NCBI GenBank assembly: GCA_030610885.1
Contig: JAUWQW010000007.1
Coordinates: forward strand, 1 to 46,389
Direction of reading: 5' to 3'
Length of the DNA: 46,389 bases
Origin: Candidatus Aminicenantota bacterium
GTDB lineage: Bacteria > Acidobacteriota > Aminicenantia > UBA2199
The notes beneath the pieces are model-generated. The model was not told the DNA's origin. It did no database searches and saw nothing but the letters and a program-made list of their open reading frames with translations. A program made the translations under genes and the position numbers. Each line of letters starts with the position of its first letter. Within the stretch, counting starts at the first letter, position 1. Positions 9,279 through 30,354 of this stretch are shown here, in pieces.

Positions 9279-9974
9279 TCAATTCAAATACTTTCTGTAT
9301 AATGCCATCATATCCATTTCTTTTAAATGTTCTGAAATTATAGGCTCTGCAGGCATAAGGCTACCATTCTTAATAAAGCTTACTCTATCAGCAATATTAT
9401 ATACATAAAATATATTGCCAGTTAAATATAAAATAGCTTTATCTTTCTGTTTCATTTCCTCAAGTAATATGTTAAATTTCAGTTCAAACTCCTTATCTTC
9501 ACCTCTTATAAAATCATTAATTACAATATTATTTTCATCATTCATCAATGAAATAGCCAAATAAACTGCCTTAAAATCAATAAGATTCGAATTCTTTATT
9601 TTTATATTTAAATCCTTTTCAAACAAATTAAATTGAAACAGAATCTCAAGAACTCTATTCTTTAAATTTATGTTATTACCACATATGTAATCAATAAAAT
9701 TATTCAAAGTAACCTCAATCTCAAAATCACCTATATCTTCAATATGGTTCACTGATGAAATATATTTTTTTTCAGATTCAGTCACATCATTCGAATCAAC
9801 AAAGATCTTACCTTTATTTATTTTTCTGAATCCTTCAAGTATTTCAAAAAGAGTTTCCAAACATTGTTCTTCTTTACATATCAAACAATATATCTCTCCA
9901 TTTTCTATTCCCATATTAAGATCATTCAATAATGATCCATTTTCACCATATTCCAAATGTTCTATTTTAATCAT
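9279..9974 (-). CDS. ABC-transporter ATPase-like protein lacking the nucleotide-binding motifs
   Basis: Collinear with ABC ATPases (IKIEHLEYGENGSLLNDLNMGIENGEIYCL...IADRVSFIKNGSL) but Walker A, signature, Walker B and H-loop are not conserved. Confidence 0.75.
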   Translation of the reverse strand: MIKIEHLEYGENGSLLNDLNMGIENGEIYCLICKEEQCLETLFEILEGFRKINKGKIFVDSNDVTESEKKYISSVNHIEDIGDFEIEVTLNNFIDYICGNNINLKNRVLEILFQFNLFEKDLNIKIKNSNLIDFKAVYLAISLMNDENNIVINDFIRGEDKEFELKFNILLEEMKQKDKAILYLTGNIFYVYNIADRVSFIKNGSLMPAEPIISEHLKEMDMMALYRKYLN

Positions 9975-11314
9975 TTCTTATAAATTAGATTTCTTAATCG
10001 AAAATAAGAAATTCCAATAAGTATTATGCAGTAACACATTATAATCAAGATCCCATATAAATAAGTTTCAGGTAAATGATTTTTTGCTCCGAAAATATTC
10101 TCATTATGTTTAACAAAGGGTTCTATCTTCTGGCTTCTCTTTATATACATTTTTTGAATGTAATACTCAAGAAACTCTCTCCTCAAATTTATGATATAAT
10201 CATAAAAACCTAAATATCCATAAAAACCCTGACCAGATATTTCATGTGATACAAATGAATAATAAAGAGAAGGATATAATAATGAACTTTTTTCATAATA
10301 ATTTATCAAATTTCTAAGCTTTTTTCTAAGCATCATTTCCCGACTTACATTTAGCATGAATTCGTTCTTCCTGTATTCCTTAGCAAGTTTTATATTTATA
10401 GGTTGAATTTTAGTTAACGAATCTTTTTTCTTAAGAAGCAGTTCCAGTCCTCTTTTTTCAAAATCCATTAAAGTTTTTAGCTTTTTTATATTTATCTTTT
10501 CATTTGTCGGAAGCTTTTGAGATTCATTAAACAAGTAAACACGATTAATCTCAGGGATTAAAAAAATTGATACAAACCAGAATAAGAAAACCCACATATA
10601 AGTAATCATTTCAAATTTTGATAGAACTTTTATTAAACTTCCAATACAAAAGAAAAAATTTAGAAACAAGAGAGTATATAGGAGAAAGGGTAAAATATAA
10701 GGTATATTTTGAACATGAAGAGAAATGCCCTTTATTAAGGTAAAAAAGTAAACAAACTCAAACAGGAGAACAAAAATCATATTCAGCCAAAAGAGTCTTG
10801 AAAAAAGTGCCTTAAAAAACACTCTCTTTAAATCCATTTGCTTCAAAACAAATCTCATATAATTCTTACTTTCAATCACTCCAGCGCCCATATAAATCAT
10901 AAACAAACTTCCGAATAGAAACACAATCCCTGAAAAATCCTTAAAACTCCCCTTTTGAGTAAACAAATTTTTACCCTTAAAAGAATGATATATTTTCAAT
11001 ATCTCAAGAGTATCAACATTAGATTCAATATCCTTGAATACAGTACTGTTTGTAAAAAAAACAGTAACAGGAGAAAGCTCATAAAGTACCCTGAATCCAT
11101 ATCCTCCATATTGTGTATAATTTGTATATTGTTTGACTTTCTGTTTTTCATAAGCAATAAAATTCTCTTTTTTGTTTAAAAATCCCATATATTCACTAAT
11201 CCCAACAGATATATAATAAAGAGAAAGGACAAATAAAAAGATTACAAACAGGTTCACCTTTTTATCTCTAAAAATACGCAAAAATTCATATCTTAAAAAT
11301 CTCATACAATTCAA
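9971..11314 (-). CDS. ABC-2-type permease-like membrane protein
   Basis: N-terminal LRYEFLRIFRDKKVNLFVIFLFVLS, several TM segments, large extracytoplasmic region; ATGA overlap with the ATPase-like gene. Confidence 0.75.
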   Translation of the reverse strand: MNCMRFLRYEFLRIFRDKKVNLFVIFLFVLSLYYISVGISEYMGFLNKKENFIAYEKQKVKQYTNYTQYGGYGFRVLYELSPVTVFFTNSTVFKDIESNVDTLEILKIYHSFKGKNLFTQKGSFKDFSGIVFLFGSLFMIYMGAGVIESKNYMRFVLKQMDLKRVFFKALFSRLFWLNMIFVLLFEFVYFFTLIKGISLHVQNIPYILPFLLYTLLFLNFFFCIGSLIKVLSKFEMITYMWVFLFWFVSIFLIPEINRVYLFNESQKLPTNEKINIKKLKTLMDFEKRGLELLLKKKDSLTKIQPINIKLAKEYRKNEFMLNVSREMMLRKKLRNLINYYEKSSLLYPSLYYSFVSHEISGQGFYGYLGFYDYIINLRREFLEYYIQKMYIKRSQKIEPFVKHNENIFGAKNHLPETYLYGILIIMCYCIILIGISYFRLRNLIYKK

Positions 11315-11341: not shown

Positions 11342-11380
11342 ATTTAATCAAAGGGCAGTCTCACTGCCCTTTGATTAAAT
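11342..11380 (-). terminator. Perfect 17-bp hairpin spanning the stop codon, intra-operon attenuator or processing element
   Basis: ATTTAATCAAAGGGCAG-TCTCA-CTGCCCTTTGATTAAAT; poor U-tract on either strand. Confidence 0.5.
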
Positions 11381-12001
11381 ACTATAGAAAACAAGAGTAG
11401 CATAGTTCCCATAAAGACCTAAAATATTGTATTGCTGCAATAAGCTCCAGAAAAGTTTAATATCAGGTTTTTGTTTCATTAAAATTTCTTTTTTTATCTC
11501 TTTTAGTGTTGATAAAATCGAATCCATATCATTAACACTCTTCTCATACACACCTGCTACATCTCCTTTTTTAAGCAATTCTGATACCTCAGCCATAATT
11601 TCCTTATTAAGATGGTTCTTTTCTGCAAATGATTCATAATCAAATTTAGCATAACTCTCAGCCTCGCCCTTTTCATCACATATGATTTTACCAAAATTCA
11701 TTGCATCCGAATAATGAATCCTGGCCTTTTCCAGCTTAAAGATCGCTGATTCAGTAAGCTTAAAAACATAATCAAAATCAAATGCCATTTTTTCAGCAAT
11801 TTCAACCTCATTTAATAACAATAAAACATCGGAATTGGACTGAAGAAACAGAGATGTACCCTCAATAATCAGATCATTCTGATCGGATTTGTAATCGCAT
11901 GGGGGGTAATTCAATGCAATTATAGCATGAAGATACGTATAAGCTAATAAAATTACCACTAGCACAACAAATATTTTCAAAAAATTCCTTTTCTTTAACA
12001 T
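11375..12001 (-). CDS. Membrane-anchored/secreted hypothetical protein
   Basis: MLKKRNFLKIFVVLVVILLAYTYLHA N-terminal anchor; start set at 12001 behind AAGGAG (ORF track extends to 12037). Confidence 0.65.
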   Translation of the reverse strand: MLKKRNFLKIFVVLVVILLAYTYLHAIIALNYPPCDYKSDQNDLIIEGTSLFLQSNSDVLLLLNEVEIAEKMAFDFDYVFKLTESAIFKLEKARIHYSDAMNFGKIICDEKGEAESYAKFDYESFAEKNHLNKEIMAEVSELLKKGDVAGVYEKSVNDMDSILSTLKEIKKEILMKQKPDIKLFWSLLQQYNILGLYGNYATLVFYSI

Positions 12002-12381: not shown

Positions 12382-12397
12382 AGCAATTTTTATGCCA
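12382..12397 (-). promoter_or_regulatory. Sigma54 (-24/-12) promoter
   Basis: Minus strand TGGCAT-AAAAA-TTGCT, GG-N10-GC spacing, 58 bp upstream of the small ORF. Confidence 0.65.
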
Positions 12398-12481
12398 ACT
12401 TTTCTAAAAAAACCCTTATCATTTGATATCAAGGATTTCCAGCTTTTTTCATATTTTTTTTATTCATACAATCTATATTAA

Positions 12482-12502
12482 TGTGTTAAGTATCTTTACA
12501 CA
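12482..12502. promoter_or_regulatory. Palindromic site 1
   Basis: TGTGTTAAG TAT CTTTACACA. Confidence 0.6.
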
Positions 12503-12563
12503 ACAATTTTATAAAAAGCTTTAAAGCATTTGACAATGAGGGTTTATAAAATTCAGCCTAAAT

Positions 12564-12584
12564 TGTGTAAATTTTCTTTACACA
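12564..12584. promoter_or_regulatory. Palindromic site 2
   Basis: TGTGTAAAT TTT CTTTACACA. Confidence 0.6.
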
Positions 12585-12634
12585 TCGCAAATACAATCAA
12601 TAATACTTGATATCAAAGGCTTTCCAAAAAATAA

Positions 12635-12655
12635 AGTGTAAAATATCTTTACACA
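12635..12655. promoter_or_regulatory. Palindromic site 3
   Basis: AGTGTAAAA TAT CTTTACACA. Confidence 0.6.
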
Positions 12656-15463: not shown

Positions 15464-15497
15464 AAATTTGTTTCAAATTGTATATAATTTTAACAAT

Positions 15498-16700
15498 ATG
15501 AAAAAAATAAAAGAATTTGAATTTATAAAATCAATTTCCAAAAGCATTGAGGGTTCCTATTCTCCTAATGATTTTTTAAATCTTTTACACAAACTCATTC
15601 AAAATTTCATACCTTTTAAAAGAATTATCATATTCTACAGAGATGGATTCGGTAATAAATTCAGCCCCTTTCCAGAAAAAATTGATAATTCTCAAATCAT
15701 TACACTTAATGAAAATTCCAATTTAATAAAGAGCTTCATTACACGTAAGAGTTCTATACTATTTGATAAAAAAGAGAATATATATTGGGAACTATTCAAT
15801 AAAGATTCAAATAATTTATTGGATAAATATAATATAAACTATATTATTCCACTATATTGTAAAAATTATTATCGCGGGATACTTCTTGCCCATATTGAGC
15901 ACAATAAAACCAGACTTATAAAAGATATAGATAGAATAATAAAAATAGCTGCAAATATCTTCATACCAATCATAGAGACTGAACGCCTTGAAAATGAAAA
16001 TGACAGAAACTATTACAGATTATTCAAATTTGACAGGTTAGTTTTACTTGGTGAAATGGTTGCCTCAATCTCTCATGAACTAAAAACACCAATGAATACT
16101 ATTATTTTAGAGATCGAAGAAATCATTGATTCATATATTAAACCTGATGAAATTAAATCAGCTTTAAAAAAAATAAAAAAAGAAACCTTTAGAGTTAATG
16201 ATTTTATAGAATCACTGCTAAGTTTCTCAAAGCTTAAAGAAATATCAATAATAGACTTTTCATTAAAAGAATTTATAGAAAAAGCTCTTAACGATATCCC
16301 AAAAAAAAGGATACCTGCTAATGTTAAAATAATAAAAGAAATAGATGAAGACCTATATGTGTCAGCTGATAAAAACAGGTTACATCAAGTTTTTTTAAAT
16401 ATACTCTTTAATGCAGTTGATGCAGTTGGAGAAACAGGCGAAATTACAATAAGAATCTATTCAGAGTACAAAGATGTAAAAAAGGGCATGAAGTATATAA
16501 TTTCAATCCATGATAATGGACCAGGTATTCCTTTAGATATAAAAGATAAAGTACTTAAACCCTTTTTTACCACAAAAAAGGAAGGAACCGGCCTTGGACT
16601 ATATATTTCCTATGGAATAATGAAAAGCTTGAAAGGAGATTTAGAAATTGAAAGTACTGAAAATGGAACAACTGTTTATTTAATATTACAGGATGATTGA
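15498..16700 (+). CDS. Histidine kinase with GAF-like N-terminal region
   Basis: ISHELKTPMNTI H-box, NILFNAVDAVGE, DNGPGIP, KKEGTGLGLYIS; start set at 15498 because the promoter makes 15468 unlikely. Confidence 0.9.
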   Translation: MKKIKEFEFIKSISKSIEGSYSPNDFLNLLHKLIQNFIPFKRIIIFYRDGFGNKFSPFPEKIDNSQIITLNENSNLIKSFITRKSSILFDKKENIYWELFNKDSNNLLDKYNINYIIPLYCKNYYRGILLAHIEHNKTRLIKDIDRIIKIAANIFIPIIETERLENENDRNYYRLFKFDRLVLLGEMVASISHELKTPMNTIILEIEEIIDSYIKPDEIKSALKKIKKETFRVNDFIESLLSFSKLKEISIIDFSLKEFIEKALNDIPKKRIPANVKIIKEIDEDLYVSADKNRLHQVFLNILFNAVDAVGETGEITIRIYSEYKDVKKGMKYIISIHDNGPGIPLDIKDKVLKPFFTTKKEGTGLGLYISYGIMKSLKGDLEIESTENGTTVYLILQDD

Positions 16701-18054
16701 AATGAAAAAAAAACATTCAATATTAATTGTTGAAGACGATATTTCATTAAGAAACTCAATAAAAAATATTCTTAAAAGAAGAGAATATGAAGTCAGTGAG
16801 GCAAACTCAGTAAAAACAGCACTTCTAACCTTAAAAAAGAGAGTATTTGACCTTATTCTTTTAGATATTACATTAAAAGATGGGTCAGGTATGAATGTTT
16901 TAAAAAAGATCTCAAATGACTATAAAAACAGAGTTATAATAATTTCAGGAACAGGAACTATTGATATAGCAGTAGAAGCCATAAAAATGGGAGCTTTTGC
17001 TTTCCTTCAAAAACCAGCTGGACGTGATGTGATTTTAGAAACAGTAAAGAAAAACATATTATTAAACCAAAAGCTGGATGATTATCAGACACTTATATCT
17101 GAATTGTGTGATAAATCAAAATTCGAAAATATCATTTTCAAAAGTCTTCAAATGAAAAAAATAATACAAAAGGCAATCAAAATTACTGATCTGGATAATA
17201 CGATATTAATTAGTGGAGAGACTGGAACTGGCAAAGAGTTACTTGCACGTGCTATCCATTATACATCAAAAAGGAAAAATGACCCCTTAATTACTATTAA
17301 TTCTGCATCAATTCCAGACACCTTGGCAGAATCTGAACTTTTTGGATTTGAAGCAGGGGCATTCACAGACGCAATCTCTTCCTTTCCTGGCAAATTCATA
17401 CTTGCTGGAAATGGAACTATATTCTTAGATGAAATTTCTGAATTATCTCCTCTTATTCAATCAAAATTATTGAGAGTTCTTGAATCAGGCGAAATCTCTC
17501 CATTAAAAAGTGCTAAAACAAAAAAGATAAACGCCAGAATAATTACTGCAACAAATAAAAATTTAGAAACACTGGTCAAGAAAGGACTTTTCAGAAAAGA
17601 TTTATACTACAGAATAAACCAGATTAATATTCATATACCTCCATTAAGAAAAAGAAAAACAGATATTATACCTATTGCTGAACATTTTCTTTTTATTTCC
17701 AATATTACCCTATCAAAACGTATTGAAAGATTTGATGATGAAGTTAAAGAGACTCTTCTCCAATACTCATGGCCAGGTAATATTCGCGAATTAAAAAATG
17801 TAATCAATGAGCTCTCTCTCTTCGTTTCAGGTCCAGAAATTAAGATGAAACATCTACCTTACAGTATATTAATGCAAAAAAAATCATTTAAAAAAGAAGA
17901 ACATTTAACCACATTAAAAGAAATTGAGAGAAACCAGATTATTAATGTCCTAAAATCAACAAATTTTAATATTAAAAAAAGTGCTAAAATTTTAGGTATT
18001 TCCAGACCTTCTATTTATAAGAAGATAAAAGAGTTTGACATAAATAAAATTTAA
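16693..18054 (+). CDS. Sigma54-dependent NtrC-family response regulator
   Basis: REC domain, GETGTGKELLARAIH, GAFTDA loop, GTIFLDEISEL, Fis-type C-terminal HTH. Confidence 0.95.
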   Translation: MIEMKKKHSILIVEDDISLRNSIKNILKRREYEVSEANSVKTALLTLKKRVFDLILLDITLKDGSGMNVLKKISNDYKNRVIIISGTGTIDIAVEAIKMGAFAFLQKPAGRDVILETVKKNILLNQKLDDYQTLISELCDKSKFENIIFKSLQMKKIIQKAIKITDLDNTILISGETGTGKELLARAIHYTSKRKNDPLITINSASIPDTLAESELFGFEAGAFTDAISSFPGKFILAGNGTIFLDEISELSPLIQSKLLRVLESGEISPLKSAKTKKINARIITATNKNLETLVKKGLFRKDLYYRINQINIHIPPLRKRKTDIIPIAEHFLFISNITLSKRIERFDDEVKETLLQYSWPGNIRELKNVINELSLFVSGPEIKMKHLPYSILMQKKSFKKEEHLTTLKEIERNQIINVLKSTNFNIKKSAKILGISRPSIYKKIKEFDINKI

Positions 18055-25961: not shown

Positions 25962-26252
25962 ATGAAAATATATTGTCTGATTATATTTCTTTTTTTTAGC
26001 TTAAGCCTATCTTTTTCAGATTCAAATACAAATAAAGACAAATCATATAATAGCCCGAAAATAAAGAAAACAAAAGAACAAACATCTTTTCAAATGCAAG
26101 AAAATGATGATTATAAGATAGAAGATGACGATTTTTATTATGAATCAAATTTTTTCCCTAGAAAAATATATCAAAAAAAATTAGTTCCACTCTCAAATAA
26201 GGAAAAAATAATTTGGTCATTTAGAATGGCAAACAAAAATCTATTTCTATGA
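25962..26252 (+). CDS. Small secreted polar protein
   Basis: Signal peptide, low-complexity Lys/Asp/Asn region, ATGA overlap with the next gene. Confidence 0.5.
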   Translation: MKIYCLIIFLFFSLSLSFSDSNTNKDKSYNSPKIKKTKEQTSFQMQENDDYKIEDDDFYYESNFFPRKIYQKKLVPLSNKEKIIWSFRMANKNLFL

Positions 26253-29008
26253 TAAAGAAGTATCATTGGTATTTCATCTATTTAATTTTTATAATATTAG
26301 CCCTCACCAATATATTTCAAAAATTACAATGGAGTTCTTCAACAGATAATATCAGATGGGAACAAACTGAAAATGGTTTAATGTGCATTAATTCTCCTTC
26401 AGACAGCCCAATAAAAAAAGGAGATACACTATTAACAATAAATAAATATATAATAGAAACCAATATTAACAGGGAAAGAATAATAAAAAAAAGAAAATAT
26501 TGTAGGTATGAAATTGAAAGAAATGGGCTTTTAAACAATGTTGGTATTGATATAATCAATAAACATACCCCATTTTCATATTATATTTTAGCTTTTTCAG
26601 GAATACTTTTTATACTACTTACACTTAATATTTTAAATGCAAATTTAAAACAACCAAATCATATTTTAACTCCACCAATTTTTTTTATACTCAACCTATC
26701 TTTTTCTGGAATTTTAATATTTTCTCCAACAGGGGACTACAATTTATCAGATTTCTTTTTCTTATTCCTTGATAGGCTCTCATTTCTTATATTTCCAGCC
26801 TTATTATTAAGCTATTCAATATACTTTCCAATAAAATCAATCGTATTAAAAAAGATTAAACCAAGATTTCTTAATTTAATAATTTATCTTACTCCAGTTA
26901 CCATAATGCTTGTATCCTCTTTATTCATAATTAAAAATTTCAGAAAACCTATCATTAAAATCTTAACATTAACAATTAACTATTTCAGGAATATCTCTTT
27001 AAAATATTTTATTGTATACATTTTTTTGTCTTTAATATTCTTTTTGATTTCAGGTTTAAAACTCATTGTTAAAAAAAATCAAAAGAGGTTTTTATTACCC
27101 TTTTCAGGGGTTTTTATAAGTACTACATGCTTATTAATTAATATACTCATAACACCTACAAAAAATATTCTACAAGCACCATTAAATTTAAGCCTCTTTC
27201 TCCTTGCTTTGTTACCTTTAAGTCTAACCTACTTCTTAAGTCAAAAAAGATTTACAGATATTGAAATAATAATCAAAAAAACTCTTGCAATTTCATCTAT
27301 CTTCTTATTCATCTTTGGGATCTACTTGTTTCTCGGAATCAATATTGAAAAAAACAAGCTTCTTGGAATTTTCTGGTCTGTTACTGCAATTATAACTGCA
27401 GGATTACTTTTTAAACCTATTGAAGCAACAGTTCAAAAATATTTTGAGAAAATATTTTTTAAAGGTAGTTTTAATTTTAAACATAGGTTAAAAGAATTAA
27501 TTCAATCTCTTAGACAGGAAAGAAACTTATCATCTCTTTCAAAAAATTTTTTAGAAACAATAAACCATGGATTTAATCTAAAACAAAGTTCATTAATTAT
27601 TCATTTCAAAAAAAACGTTTTTTACTCTTTTCCTGAAAAAACAAAAATACTCTTATCAAAAACTTTTATAAATGATCTGTTTGCTAATGATAATTTGATT
27701 TTTTTCCATGCTCGTGAATTTGAAAGAAAGTATCCAAAAGACTATAATGTAATGAAAGATCTAAAATATTTTCAGTTTCTTCCATTAGGAACAAAACATA
27801 ACCTAATTGGCCTTATTGCGTTTGGTTTTAATGAAAACAATAAATACCTTACATTAGAAGACTGGGAGTTAATGTTCAGCATTTCTTCCTCATTATCTCT
27901 TTCAGTTGAAAATGCGTTTTTATACTCTGAGTTAGAGACTAAATTAAATGAAATAAGCTTACTAAAAGAATTTAATGAAAATATTATTGAAAACTTAAAC
28001 TTAGGTATAGTTGTGTTATCCAAACTCAATATTATAAGGAGTTGGAATAGCTTTATGGAGATTAAATTTAATATTCCAAGAAAGATAGCAATAAACAAAA
28101 AAGCTCTCACTGTTTTAGGTCCCAAACTATGGAAAAAAATCCATATAAAGAAAAATATAGTTTCTTCTTTAAATAATGAAGAGATAAAAATCTCTGAAAA
28201 GGAGTTTATATTTGACATTTATATTTCTCCTCTTAAAAATAACATTGGTAAGATAATTGGGACAATTATTGTATTTGAAGATGTAACTGAAAAAATATTC
28301 ATTCAAAATCAATTAACAACATCTGAAAAAATGGCTTCTCTTGGTTTACTATCAGCTGGAGTCGCCCATGAAATCAATACGCCATTAACTGGAATTTCAT
28401 CATTCTGTCAATTTATTCTTGATAACCCAAATGATTCAGAAAATATCGAATTAATATCAAAAATTCAGGAGCAGGTTATCAGAGCAAACGAAATTACAAA
28501 AACATTATTAAACTTCTCAAGACAGAAGGGTGAACAACCTACTGAGATCAACTTAAATAAATTAATTGATGAAAGCATATCTTTAATAGCTCATAAATTA
28601 AAGAAAAAACATATAAAATTAAATAGGAAATACAATTTTAAAAGTAAAATCTACGGATTTTCAACAAGACTTCAACAACTATTTATAAATCTGTTTATAA
28701 ATGCAAGTGATTCAATTCCCAACTCAAATGGTATAATAACTATAATAGGAAAAGAAGATAAGAAAAATATCTCTATAGATATAATAGATAATGGTATAGG
28801 TATTGAACAACAGAATATAAGAAAATTATTTAACCCATTTTTTACAACAAAAGCTCCTGGAAAGGGCACTGGTTTGGGGCTCTCAATAACCTACAATATT
28901 GTAAAAGAACATTATGGAGATATTGAAGTGAAAAGCAACTCAAATAAAGGAACCACTTTTATTATAACACTTCCAATTAAAAGCCCTTTGAGGAGAATAA
29001 AAATATGA
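26249..29008 (+). CDS. Membrane histidine kinase: PDZ-like N-terminal region, multi-TM, GAF-like, PAS, HisKA, HATPase
   Basis: NGLMCINSPSDSPIKKGDTLLTINKYIIETN, 8 or so TM segments, GVAHEINTPLTGI H-box, GKGTGLGLSI. Confidence 0.88.
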   Translation: MIKKYHWYFIYLIFIILALTNIFQKLQWSSSTDNIRWEQTENGLMCINSPSDSPIKKGDTLLTINKYIIETNINRERIIKKRKYCRYEIERNGLLNNVGIDIINKHTPFSYYILAFSGILFILLTLNILNANLKQPNHILTPPIFFILNLSFSGILIFSPTGDYNLSDFFFLFLDRLSFLIFPALLLSYSIYFPIKSIVLKKIKPRFLNLIIYLTPVTIMLVSSLFIIKNFRKPIIKILTLTINYFRNISLKYFIVYIFLSLIFFLISGLKLIVKKNQKRFLLPFSGVFISTTCLLINILITPTKNILQAPLNLSLFLLALLPLSLTYFLSQKRFTDIEIIIKKTLAISSIFLFIFGIYLFLGINIEKNKLLGIFWSVTAIITAGLLFKPIEATVQKYFEKIFFKGSFNFKHRLKELIQSLRQERNLSSLSKNFLETINHGFNLKQSSLIIHFKKNVFYSFPEKTKILLSKTFINDLFANDNLIFFHAREFERKYPKDYNVMKDLKYFQFLPLGTKHNLIGLIAFGFNENNKYLTLEDWELMFSISSSLSLSVENAFLYSELETKLNEISLLKEFNENIIENLNLGIVVLSKLNIIRSWNSFMEIKFNIPRKIAINKKALTVLGPKLWKKIHIKKNIVSSLNNEEIKISEKEFIFDIYISPLKNNIGKIIGTIIVFEDVTEKIFIQNQLTTSEKMASLGLLSAGVAHEINTPLTGISSFCQFILDNPNDSENIELISKIQEQVIRANEITKTLLNFSRQKGEQPTEINLNKLIDESISLIAHKLKKKHIKLNRKYNFKSKIYGFSTRLQQLFINLFINASDSIPNSNGIITIIGKEDKKNISIDIIDNGIGIEQQNIRKLFNPFFTTKAPGKGTGLGLSITYNIVKEHYGDIEVKSNSNKGTTFIITLPIKSPLRRIKI

Positions 29009-30354
29009 GAAAAAAGATAATTCATCTTATTGATGATGAAAAGATTATTCATGAAATTTTTAAAAGAATATTTAAAAGTAATGAATATGAATTGATTATT
29101 TCTGAAAATAAAAGTCAAGCAAAAACACACCATACTCCAGATGTAGATGTTACAATTATGGATTTAATGATTCCAGGAAGCTCTGGAATAGAAATTTTTA
29201 AAGAACTTAAAAAAAGTGACCCTGAAATTAAAATTATATTTTTAACTGCATATGGAACAATTGAATCTGCCATTGAGACAATAAAATTGGGTGCAGAGGA
29301 TTATTTACAAAAACCCTTTAATAATATAGAACTCAAACACAAAATTGATAGAATTATAAAAGGAGAATATATCAAAAAGGAAAATATACAATTAAAAATG
29401 GTTTTAAATCAGAGATTTTCATTTAATAATATAATTGGTAAAAGTAGGATTCTTATGAAAACTCTTTCATTGGTAGAAAGCGTTGCTAAAACAAATTCAA
29501 CAGTTTTAATAACTGGAGAAAGCGGCACAGGCAAAGAATTGATTGCAAAAGCTACATATAACAATTCAAACAGAAAAAATGACCCATTCTTCTCATTGAA
29601 CTCAAGCAATATACCAGATGCCCTATTTGAAAGTATACTATTTGGTCATACAAAAGGAGCTTTTACAAGCGCATATACAGATAAAAAAGGTGTTTTTGAA
29701 GAAGCAGACAAGGGAACAATTTTTTTTGATGAGATTTCAAATTTAAACCCAGAAACTCAATCAAAAATATTAAGAGTTATACAAGAAAAAGAATTTCAAC
29801 CTTTAGGTAGCAATAAAACAATAAAAGTGGATGTGAGAATAATAGCAGCCACAAATGTTGACCTTAAAAAGAGAGTAGAAGAAAATAAATTTAGAGAAGA
29901 TTTATACTATAGACTCAATATTATAAATATAAATCTCCCTCCTTTAAGAGAGAGAAAGGAAGATATCCCTTTACTTGCTGAACACTTTCTGAAAAAATAT
30001 TCAAAAGAAAATAATAAAAATGTAAATAACATAGACAATAAATTTATGAAGTATTTGTTGAATTATAGCTGGCCTGGTAATATAAGAGAACTTGAAAATA
30101 CTTTACAAAGAGGAGTTATACTCTCAACCTCAAACACCTTAACATATGACCTACTTCCAACTGAAATAATTGAATCAGATTCAAAAAACATTTTAAAAGG
30201 CTCTTATAATGAGCAAATTGATGAATTCAAGAAGCAATTAATAATCCAGGCTCTTGAAAAAAATAATTGGGTTCAGAAAAGTGCTTGCAAAAATTTGGGC
30301 TTAAAACCAACTACTTTCTCTGAATTAATGAAGAGGTTAAACATTCATAAATGA
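29005..30354 (+). CDS. Sigma54-dependent NtrC-family response regulator
   Basis: IMDLMIPGSSG receiver, GESGTGKELIAKA, GAFTSA loop, GTIFFDEISN, Fis-like HTH. Confidence 0.95.
   Translation: MRKKIIHLIDDEKIIHEIFKRIFKSNEYELIISENKSQAKTHHTPDVDVTIMDLMIPGSSGIEIFKELKKSDPEIKIIFLTAYGTIESAIETIKLGAEDYLQKPFNNIELKHKIDRIIKGEYIKKENIQLKMVLNQRFSFNNIIGKSRILMKTLSLVESVAKTNSTVLITGESGTGKELIAKATYNNSNRKNDPFFSLNSSNIPDALFESILFGHTKGAFTSAYTDKKGVFEEADKGTIFFDEISNLNPETQSKILRVIQEKEFQPLGSNKTIKVDVRIIAATNVDLKKRVEENKFREDLYYRLNIININLPPLRERKEDIPLLAEHFLKKYSKENNKNVNNIDNKFMKYLLNYSWPGNIRELENTLQRGVILSTSNTLTYDLLPTEIIESDSKNILKGSYNEQIDEFKKQLIIQALEKNNWVQKSACKNLGLKPTTFSELMKRLNIHK

Follow-up and report, generated by a model that had tools for sequence, protein, structure and literature searches.

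What is the function of three 21-bp palindromic sites that stand upstream of a putative sigma54 promoter in an uncultured bacterium, which genes do they serve, and which activator binds them? The window analysed here is a 46,389-nucleotide stretch of DNA from Candidatus Aminicenantota bacterium (contig JAUWQW010000007.1), and the sites in question lie within its positions 12,382 to 12,655. Taken together, the analyses described below indicate that this region is probably the enhancer-promoter of a sigma54-dependent operon, controlled by the kinase encoded at 15468 and the activator encoded at 16693 as a two-component system.

Promoter, dyads and the operon behind them

Three 21-mers and a minus-strand TTGGCATAAAAATTGCT had been reported by the first-pass annotation, and all of them were found at exactly the positions claimed (Table 1). 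The reported near-edge distances of 85, 167 and 238 bp were reproduced when measured from the TGG at 12397, and the right arm CTTTACACA, described as invariant, was indeed present in all three dyads, which share the pattern TGTAAA-N5-TTTACA. To estimate the expectation by chance, the window was described by a first-order Markov model and 200 windows were simulated, with a site threshold of at least 11 of 12 positions. Three such sites were seen against 0.54 expected, and no pair of sites less than 100 bp apart arose in the 200 simulated windows, so that a chance origin of the array is unlikely. Transcription from this promoter would start at about 12370, as judged from the sequence. RpoN is encoded in the same genome (PF04552, 154.7 bits) and in two congeners, G001 and G002. 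Elsewhere in the window, at 2521-2536 of the plus strand, TGGCACAATTATTGCA matches the sigma54 consensus at 11 of 12 positions, better than the promoter reported here. It stands 37 bp ahead of an ORF at 2573 for a 106-aa secreted-type protein, and strong dyads of the TGTAAA type were not found around it.

Table 1. Features of the enhancer-promoter region, its operon, the candidate regulators and the module copies of the same genome (window coordinates unless a contig is given)
Feature	Position	Strand	Remarks
Sigma54 -24/-12 element TTGGCATAAAAATTGCT	12398-12382	minus	GG-N10-GC; TGGCA...TTGC hexamer context; 10/12 consensus positions
Position-locked element GAAATCCTTGATATCAAATG	12439-12420	minus	consensus aAAacC.TTgtCA..aaaGg; EM motif
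Proximal dyad TGTGTTAAGTATCTTTACACA	12482-12502		predicted activator dimer site
Middle dyad TGTGTAAATTTTCTTTACACA	12564-12584		82 bp from proximal dyad
Distal dyad AGTGTAAAATATCTTTACACA	12635-12655		71 bp from middle dyad
56-aa ORF	12324-12154	minus	first gene behind promoter; predicted three helices, HTH-like; RBS-like AGGAG
208-aa protein	11375-12001	minus	N-terminal TM helix and helical bundle; AF2 pLDDT 83
447-aa membrane permease	9971-11314	minus	seven genomes of two other genera have homologs (447-454 aa, 31-41% identical)
231-aa ABC ATPase-like protein	9279-9974	minus	without Walker A
Histidine kinase, predicted cognate sensor	15468-16700	plus	HisKA and HATPase_c; orthologs adjoin activator orthologs
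Sigma54 activator, NtrC-type response regulator, predicted dyad binder	16693-18054	plus	PF00072, PF00158 (202.6 bits), PF02954 Fis HTH (48.6 bits), ...ISRPSIYKKIKEF...
Full array, C40			the window array
Full array, C93	C93:17317-17489		
Full array, C102	C102:5338-5511		
Truncated fourth copy	C124:28343-28464		retains proximal dyad and promoter only

The 56-aa ORF, the other module copies and the conserved element at 12439-12420 were absent from the first-pass annotation. The ORF is conserved at 56-57 aa in G001 and G002 with 77-80% identity, and its dN (0.08-0.12) is lower than its dS (0.12-0.49); the structure model obtained for it is of low confidence (pTM 0.38). Homologs of the 208-aa protein with 28-38% identity were found in G005, G008, G014, G024, G026, G007, G013 and G020, and a structure search with this protein against the PDB gave no match below an E value of 0.06. 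For the permease, one further homolog was found in G005. The motif G....GK[ST] is absent from the 231-aa protein of the window and from all six orthologs checked in other genera; by its sequence, therefore, this protein is a conserved pseudo-ATPase paired with the permease and not a product of local decay.

The assignment of the sites to the downstream cluster, which the first-pass annotation had preferred, is supported by the orthologous 208-aa, 447-aa and pseudo-ATPase genes, which also stand behind a sigma54 site in other Aminicenantes. In genus g6, a sigma54 site was found ahead of this operon at 4 of the 5 loci inspected, and some of the arrays of that genus precede the orthologous operon.

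Copies of the module in the genus and in other Aminicenantes

The genome (G000; 2.5 Mb in 128 contigs) was searched with the pattern TGTGTAAAN5TTTACACA. All seven sites with at most one mismatch to the 21-bp pattern were located inside three arrays, and the palindrome was not found at many unrelated non-sigma54 sites. Two further sites had two mismatches, one of them in an array, and at three mismatches the background was at the control level (36 matches in all versus 47 for the reversed pattern). Each of the four copies, three full and one truncated, has a sigma54 site, and the -24/-12 element of the window is conserved at C93 and C124 as well as in G001 and G002. The four copies are about 88% identical on alignment, spacers included, and comparison of loci across the genus gives 88-93% identity over the entire region (about 290 bp). 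Two module copies were found in each of the two congeners, one per genome being the ortholog of the window locus.

Two related metallophosphoesterases (PF00149, 39% identical to each other) are encoded behind the copies on C93 and C124. The C102 array precedes a radical-SAM peptide cluster, in which the genes for a radical SAM maturase, a SPASM protein and a C39-peptidase transporter come after that for a double-glycine-type peptide; the peptide comes near TIGR04149 (22.1 versus a cut-off of 25). In this RiPP-type cluster (L017, 1-5149), the TIGR04149-like precursor of 56 aa, with GG and Cys residues, stands behind the same promoter, and a 355-aa secreted-type protein is also included. Upstream of the truncated C124 copy, at a distance of a few hundred bp, there is a gene for a Y1 transposase. 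At this locus (L030, 7346-8464), the transposase is IS200-like, CTGACCCC words occur near the broken edge of the module, and a TTGACCCC word was noticed near the distal edge of the C93 copy; these words at the copy edges hint at transposase-linked rearrangement. Short contigs of G001 and G002 (L037, L039 and L034) terminate in or beside the array; assemblies are probably broken by the repeat, and the true number of copies may be higher.

Outside the genus, two dyads 55-85 bp apart were searched for. With the TGTAAA half-site, arrays were found in one other Aminicenantes genus, g4, represented by G005 (Candidatus Aminicenantes Ww63), where each of the ten has three dyads and, after them, a GG-N10-GC site, with mean spacings of 72.2 and 84.1 bp and then 92.9 bp to the -24 GG. 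The identity of the G005 spacers was 0.58 versus 0.56 for shuffled spacers; the spacers are unrelated, and the geometry is thus conserved without sequence descent of the spacers. Targets of these arrays include an NRPS with condensation and AMP-binding domains, a second locus with homologs of the 447-aa and 208-aa proteins of the window and, by inspection, a B12-type radical SAM protein and a ketoacyl-synthase-like cluster. In total, 17 TGTAAA-type arrays in four genomes (G000, G001, G002 and G005) of two genera share the geometry.

In genus g6, the dyads are TGTCCC-N5-GGGACA, with the dyad length unchanged and usually three dyads per array. Mean spacings of 72.0, 78.2 and 94.5 bp were obtained for the 11 arrays measured, several of which are orthologous promoters of sister species and hence not independent. 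The ranges are looser (69-77, 73-82 and 85-98 bp), so strict helical phasing is not kept in g6. In nearly all of the 17 TGTAAA and 11 TGTCCC arrays, a GG-N10-GC site follows about 94 bp on, and this recurrence in a second and a third genus favours the promoter-plus-enhancer reading that had been put forward for the window. Neither dyad type was found near the activator orthologs (50-53%) of G008 and G014 (g7) and of G009 and G019 (g8), and exact site pairs of either type were not found genome-wide in these four, which counts against the 16693-type activator as the binder of the dyads. TGTAAAN5TTTACA dyads in pairs or in tandem, at distances of 69-71 bp, also stand before sigma54-like sites in MAGs of Geobacter, Aquificota, Persephonella and Hydrogenedentota (L062-L136); some have a third dyad at 18-20 bp, and the targets include secreted proteins and a glycosyltransferase.

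Between the proximal dyad and the promoter, the EM motif aAAacC.TTgtCA..aaaGg gave a log-likelihood of 108 versus at most 64 in shuffled spacers. Its offset is the same to within 3 bp in 17 of the 22 arrays and, for G005, in 8 of the 10. That a DNA-bending protein binds this element is a reasonable guess. An IHF site was considered and not adopted: a TCA/ATCAA core is present in many copies, but the WATCAANNNNTTR consensus was not matched by eye. Elements in the two other spacers are not claimed; the signals were 79.7 versus 48.4 in shuffled spacers for the distal/middle spacer and 60.2 versus 46.4 for the middle/proximal one, and the offsets scatter.

Candidate regulator and alternative explanations

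Twelve PF00158 activators are encoded in the genome, and the one at 16693 is nearest to the array. It is retained in the two congeners (at 95% and 88%) and in every array-bearing genome examined. In g6 and g7, seven genomes have its orthologs, together with those of the kinase, next to the genes for the 208-aa, 447-aa and ATPase-like proteins. The G005 ortholog is located about 1 kb from an array; against the assignment, 18 sigma54 activators are encoded in that genome, and two others (on C170 and C456) are also near arrays. The recognition helix of the orthologs reads RP[ST][IL]YKK in the TGTAAA genomes (G000-G002 and G005) versus R[ST]SLYRK in the TGTCCC genus g6. This covariation of helix and half-site favours the 16693 protein as the regulator, only suggestively so, because some other activators, such as those of the C8 group (K to Q), likewise have different helices in g1/g4 and in g6. 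By conserved adjacency, retention in the array-bearing genomes and a helix that differs between the dyad types, the regulator proposed by the first-pass annotation remains the best candidate at the level of sequence. A second kinase and sigma54 activator pair is encoded at 26249-30354 of the plus strand of the window, and the HTH of that activator, LKPTTFSELMKRL, is unlike that of 16693.

Binding of the arrays by a different sigma54 activator is unlikely. The example considered was the GAF-type activator on C124 (484 aa), with relatives near arrays on C456 of G005 and C5 of G013; activators of this type are physically close to arrays in three genera. The C124 activator is missing, however, from the array-bearing G001 and G002, where only AAA-domain matches of at most 45% were obtained, and it is without the canonical Fis HTH; the candidate was rejected for its absence from both congeners. 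In G013, moreover, the array promoter points into the gene of the C124-type activator, which looks like a target there. This arrangement (L227, 1141-2900, a TGTCCC array directed into the GAF-type activator gene) suggests an activator cascade. A good deal less probable is an origin of the array as a repeat or mobile fragment of a promoter, conserved through recent copying and not for its function. The high identity of the region between loci of the genus, the truncation of one copy close to the Y1 transposase gene and the contigs that break at the array would fit such an origin, but in G005 the dyads, the spacing and the sigma54 site persist at ten loci with unrelated spacers, and another genus keeps the array layout with different half-sites.

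Two known systems with similar sites were also weighed. In Haft et al. 2006 (PMC1569441), a 17-nt PEP-CTERM motif ending in TTTACA stands about 63 nt before a sigma54 site and is the predicted target of PrsR, an NtrC-like regulator with the kinase PrsK; TGTAAAN5TTTACA is likewise 17 nt, and the likeness of the window dyad to motif 1 is judged by length, 3' end and context. A true PrsR (609 bits) with the similar helix SRPTIY is encoded in a Geobacter MAG that has many paired dyads. The activator at 16693, on the other hand, scored 338.1 bits versus the TIGR02915 cut-off of 502.6, and the kinase scored 83.2 bits versus the TIGR02916 cut-off of 300; no Aminicenantes protein exceeded the TIGR02915 cut-off, and a search of six Aminicenantes genomes, among them the four with TGTAAA arrays, gave no exosortase (EpsH, PF09721). 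The target genes differ as well, and the PrsR box is single and sometimes repeated, whereas three dyads at set spacing are present in the window. Membership of a PEP-CTERM/exosortase region bound by PrsR was rejected by the family cut-offs and the missing exosortase, and is very improbable. Hardly credible is the reading of the dyads as TyrR-type boxes: their half-sites equal those of the consensus TGTAAA-N6-TTTACA (PMC4374768), but the spacer is N5 throughout, one base shorter (G-N13-C versus G-N14-C), and TyrR boxes were rejected for this wrong spacing. Nor is the regulator a TyrR, since the 16693 protein fits HTH_8 (6.8e-13) far better than HTH_50 (1.5e-3) and scored 256 versus the TyrR cut-off of 576, and the sister genus has TGTCCC half-sites.

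Relation to known sigma54 systems and proposed mechanism

At norVW of Escherichia coli, three upstream sites are required for sigma54 activation and serve as a scaffold for the NorR hexamer (Tucker et al. 2010, as summarised in PMC2941729). Three sites upstream of one sigma54 promoter are likewise present in the window, here known from sequence, and by this analogy the system may act like NorR at norVW. The GAF-domain activator NorR acts at one intergenic region, whereas the window has a two-component activator and TGTAAA/TGTCCC dyads, and the layout is found at many promoters across genera. With NtrC and AtoC, the 16693 protein shares the receiver, the AAA+ sigma54-interaction domain, the Fis HTH and the adjoining kinase; its best NCBIfam match is AtoC (349 bits, below the cut-off), and it differs in its own dyad sequence, the three-site geometry and the targets, namely the permease/pseudo-ATPase operon and peptide-biosynthesis genes. 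The system of the window is a variant of the known sigma54 enhancer type and not PEP-CTERM/PrsR. Within the literature collection searched, no paper on Aminicenantes with sigma-54 was retrieved.

For control by kinase 15468 and activator 16693, the following mechanism is proposed. The kinase would phosphorylate the activator, and dimers of the phosphorylated activator would bind to the three dyads, which are spaced by about 7 and 8 helical turns, and assemble one AAA+ hexamer. The hexamer would loop over about 94 bp to the -24 element, probably with the aid of the factor bound to the fixed 12439-12420 element, and its ATP hydrolysis would open the sigma54-RNA polymerase complex, so that the 56-aa ORF, the 208-aa membrane protein, the 447-aa permease and the 231-aa pseudo-ATPase would be expressed. 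Within the genus, the region has been copied ahead of other genes, namely the metallophosphoesterases and the radical-SAM RiPP cluster. The layout serves other genes again in sister genera, and where the half-sites are TGTCCC, the helix of the 16693-type activator is different too.

Sigma54 enhancers are usually thought to be tolerant of spacing. In about 28 arrays of three genera, the dyad distances are near-constant while the spacers, the target genes and the half-sites change. These arrays are a natural data set for two questions: does the activator hexamer nucleate from three dimers at fixed sites, as the NorR model has it, and how does the specificity of an activator shift in step with that of all its sites? 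With the odds about even, the three-dyad scaffold and the position-locked element may be, in a family of Aminicenantes, a portable sigma54 enhancer for specialised-metabolite and transport genes, whose geometry is constrained and whose half-sites were rewired between genera, from TGTAAA to TGTCCC, along with the helix of one two-component activator. The arrays also provide a predicted regulon for this uncultured lineage, comprising RiPP, NRPS, phosphoesterase and ABC-type genes.
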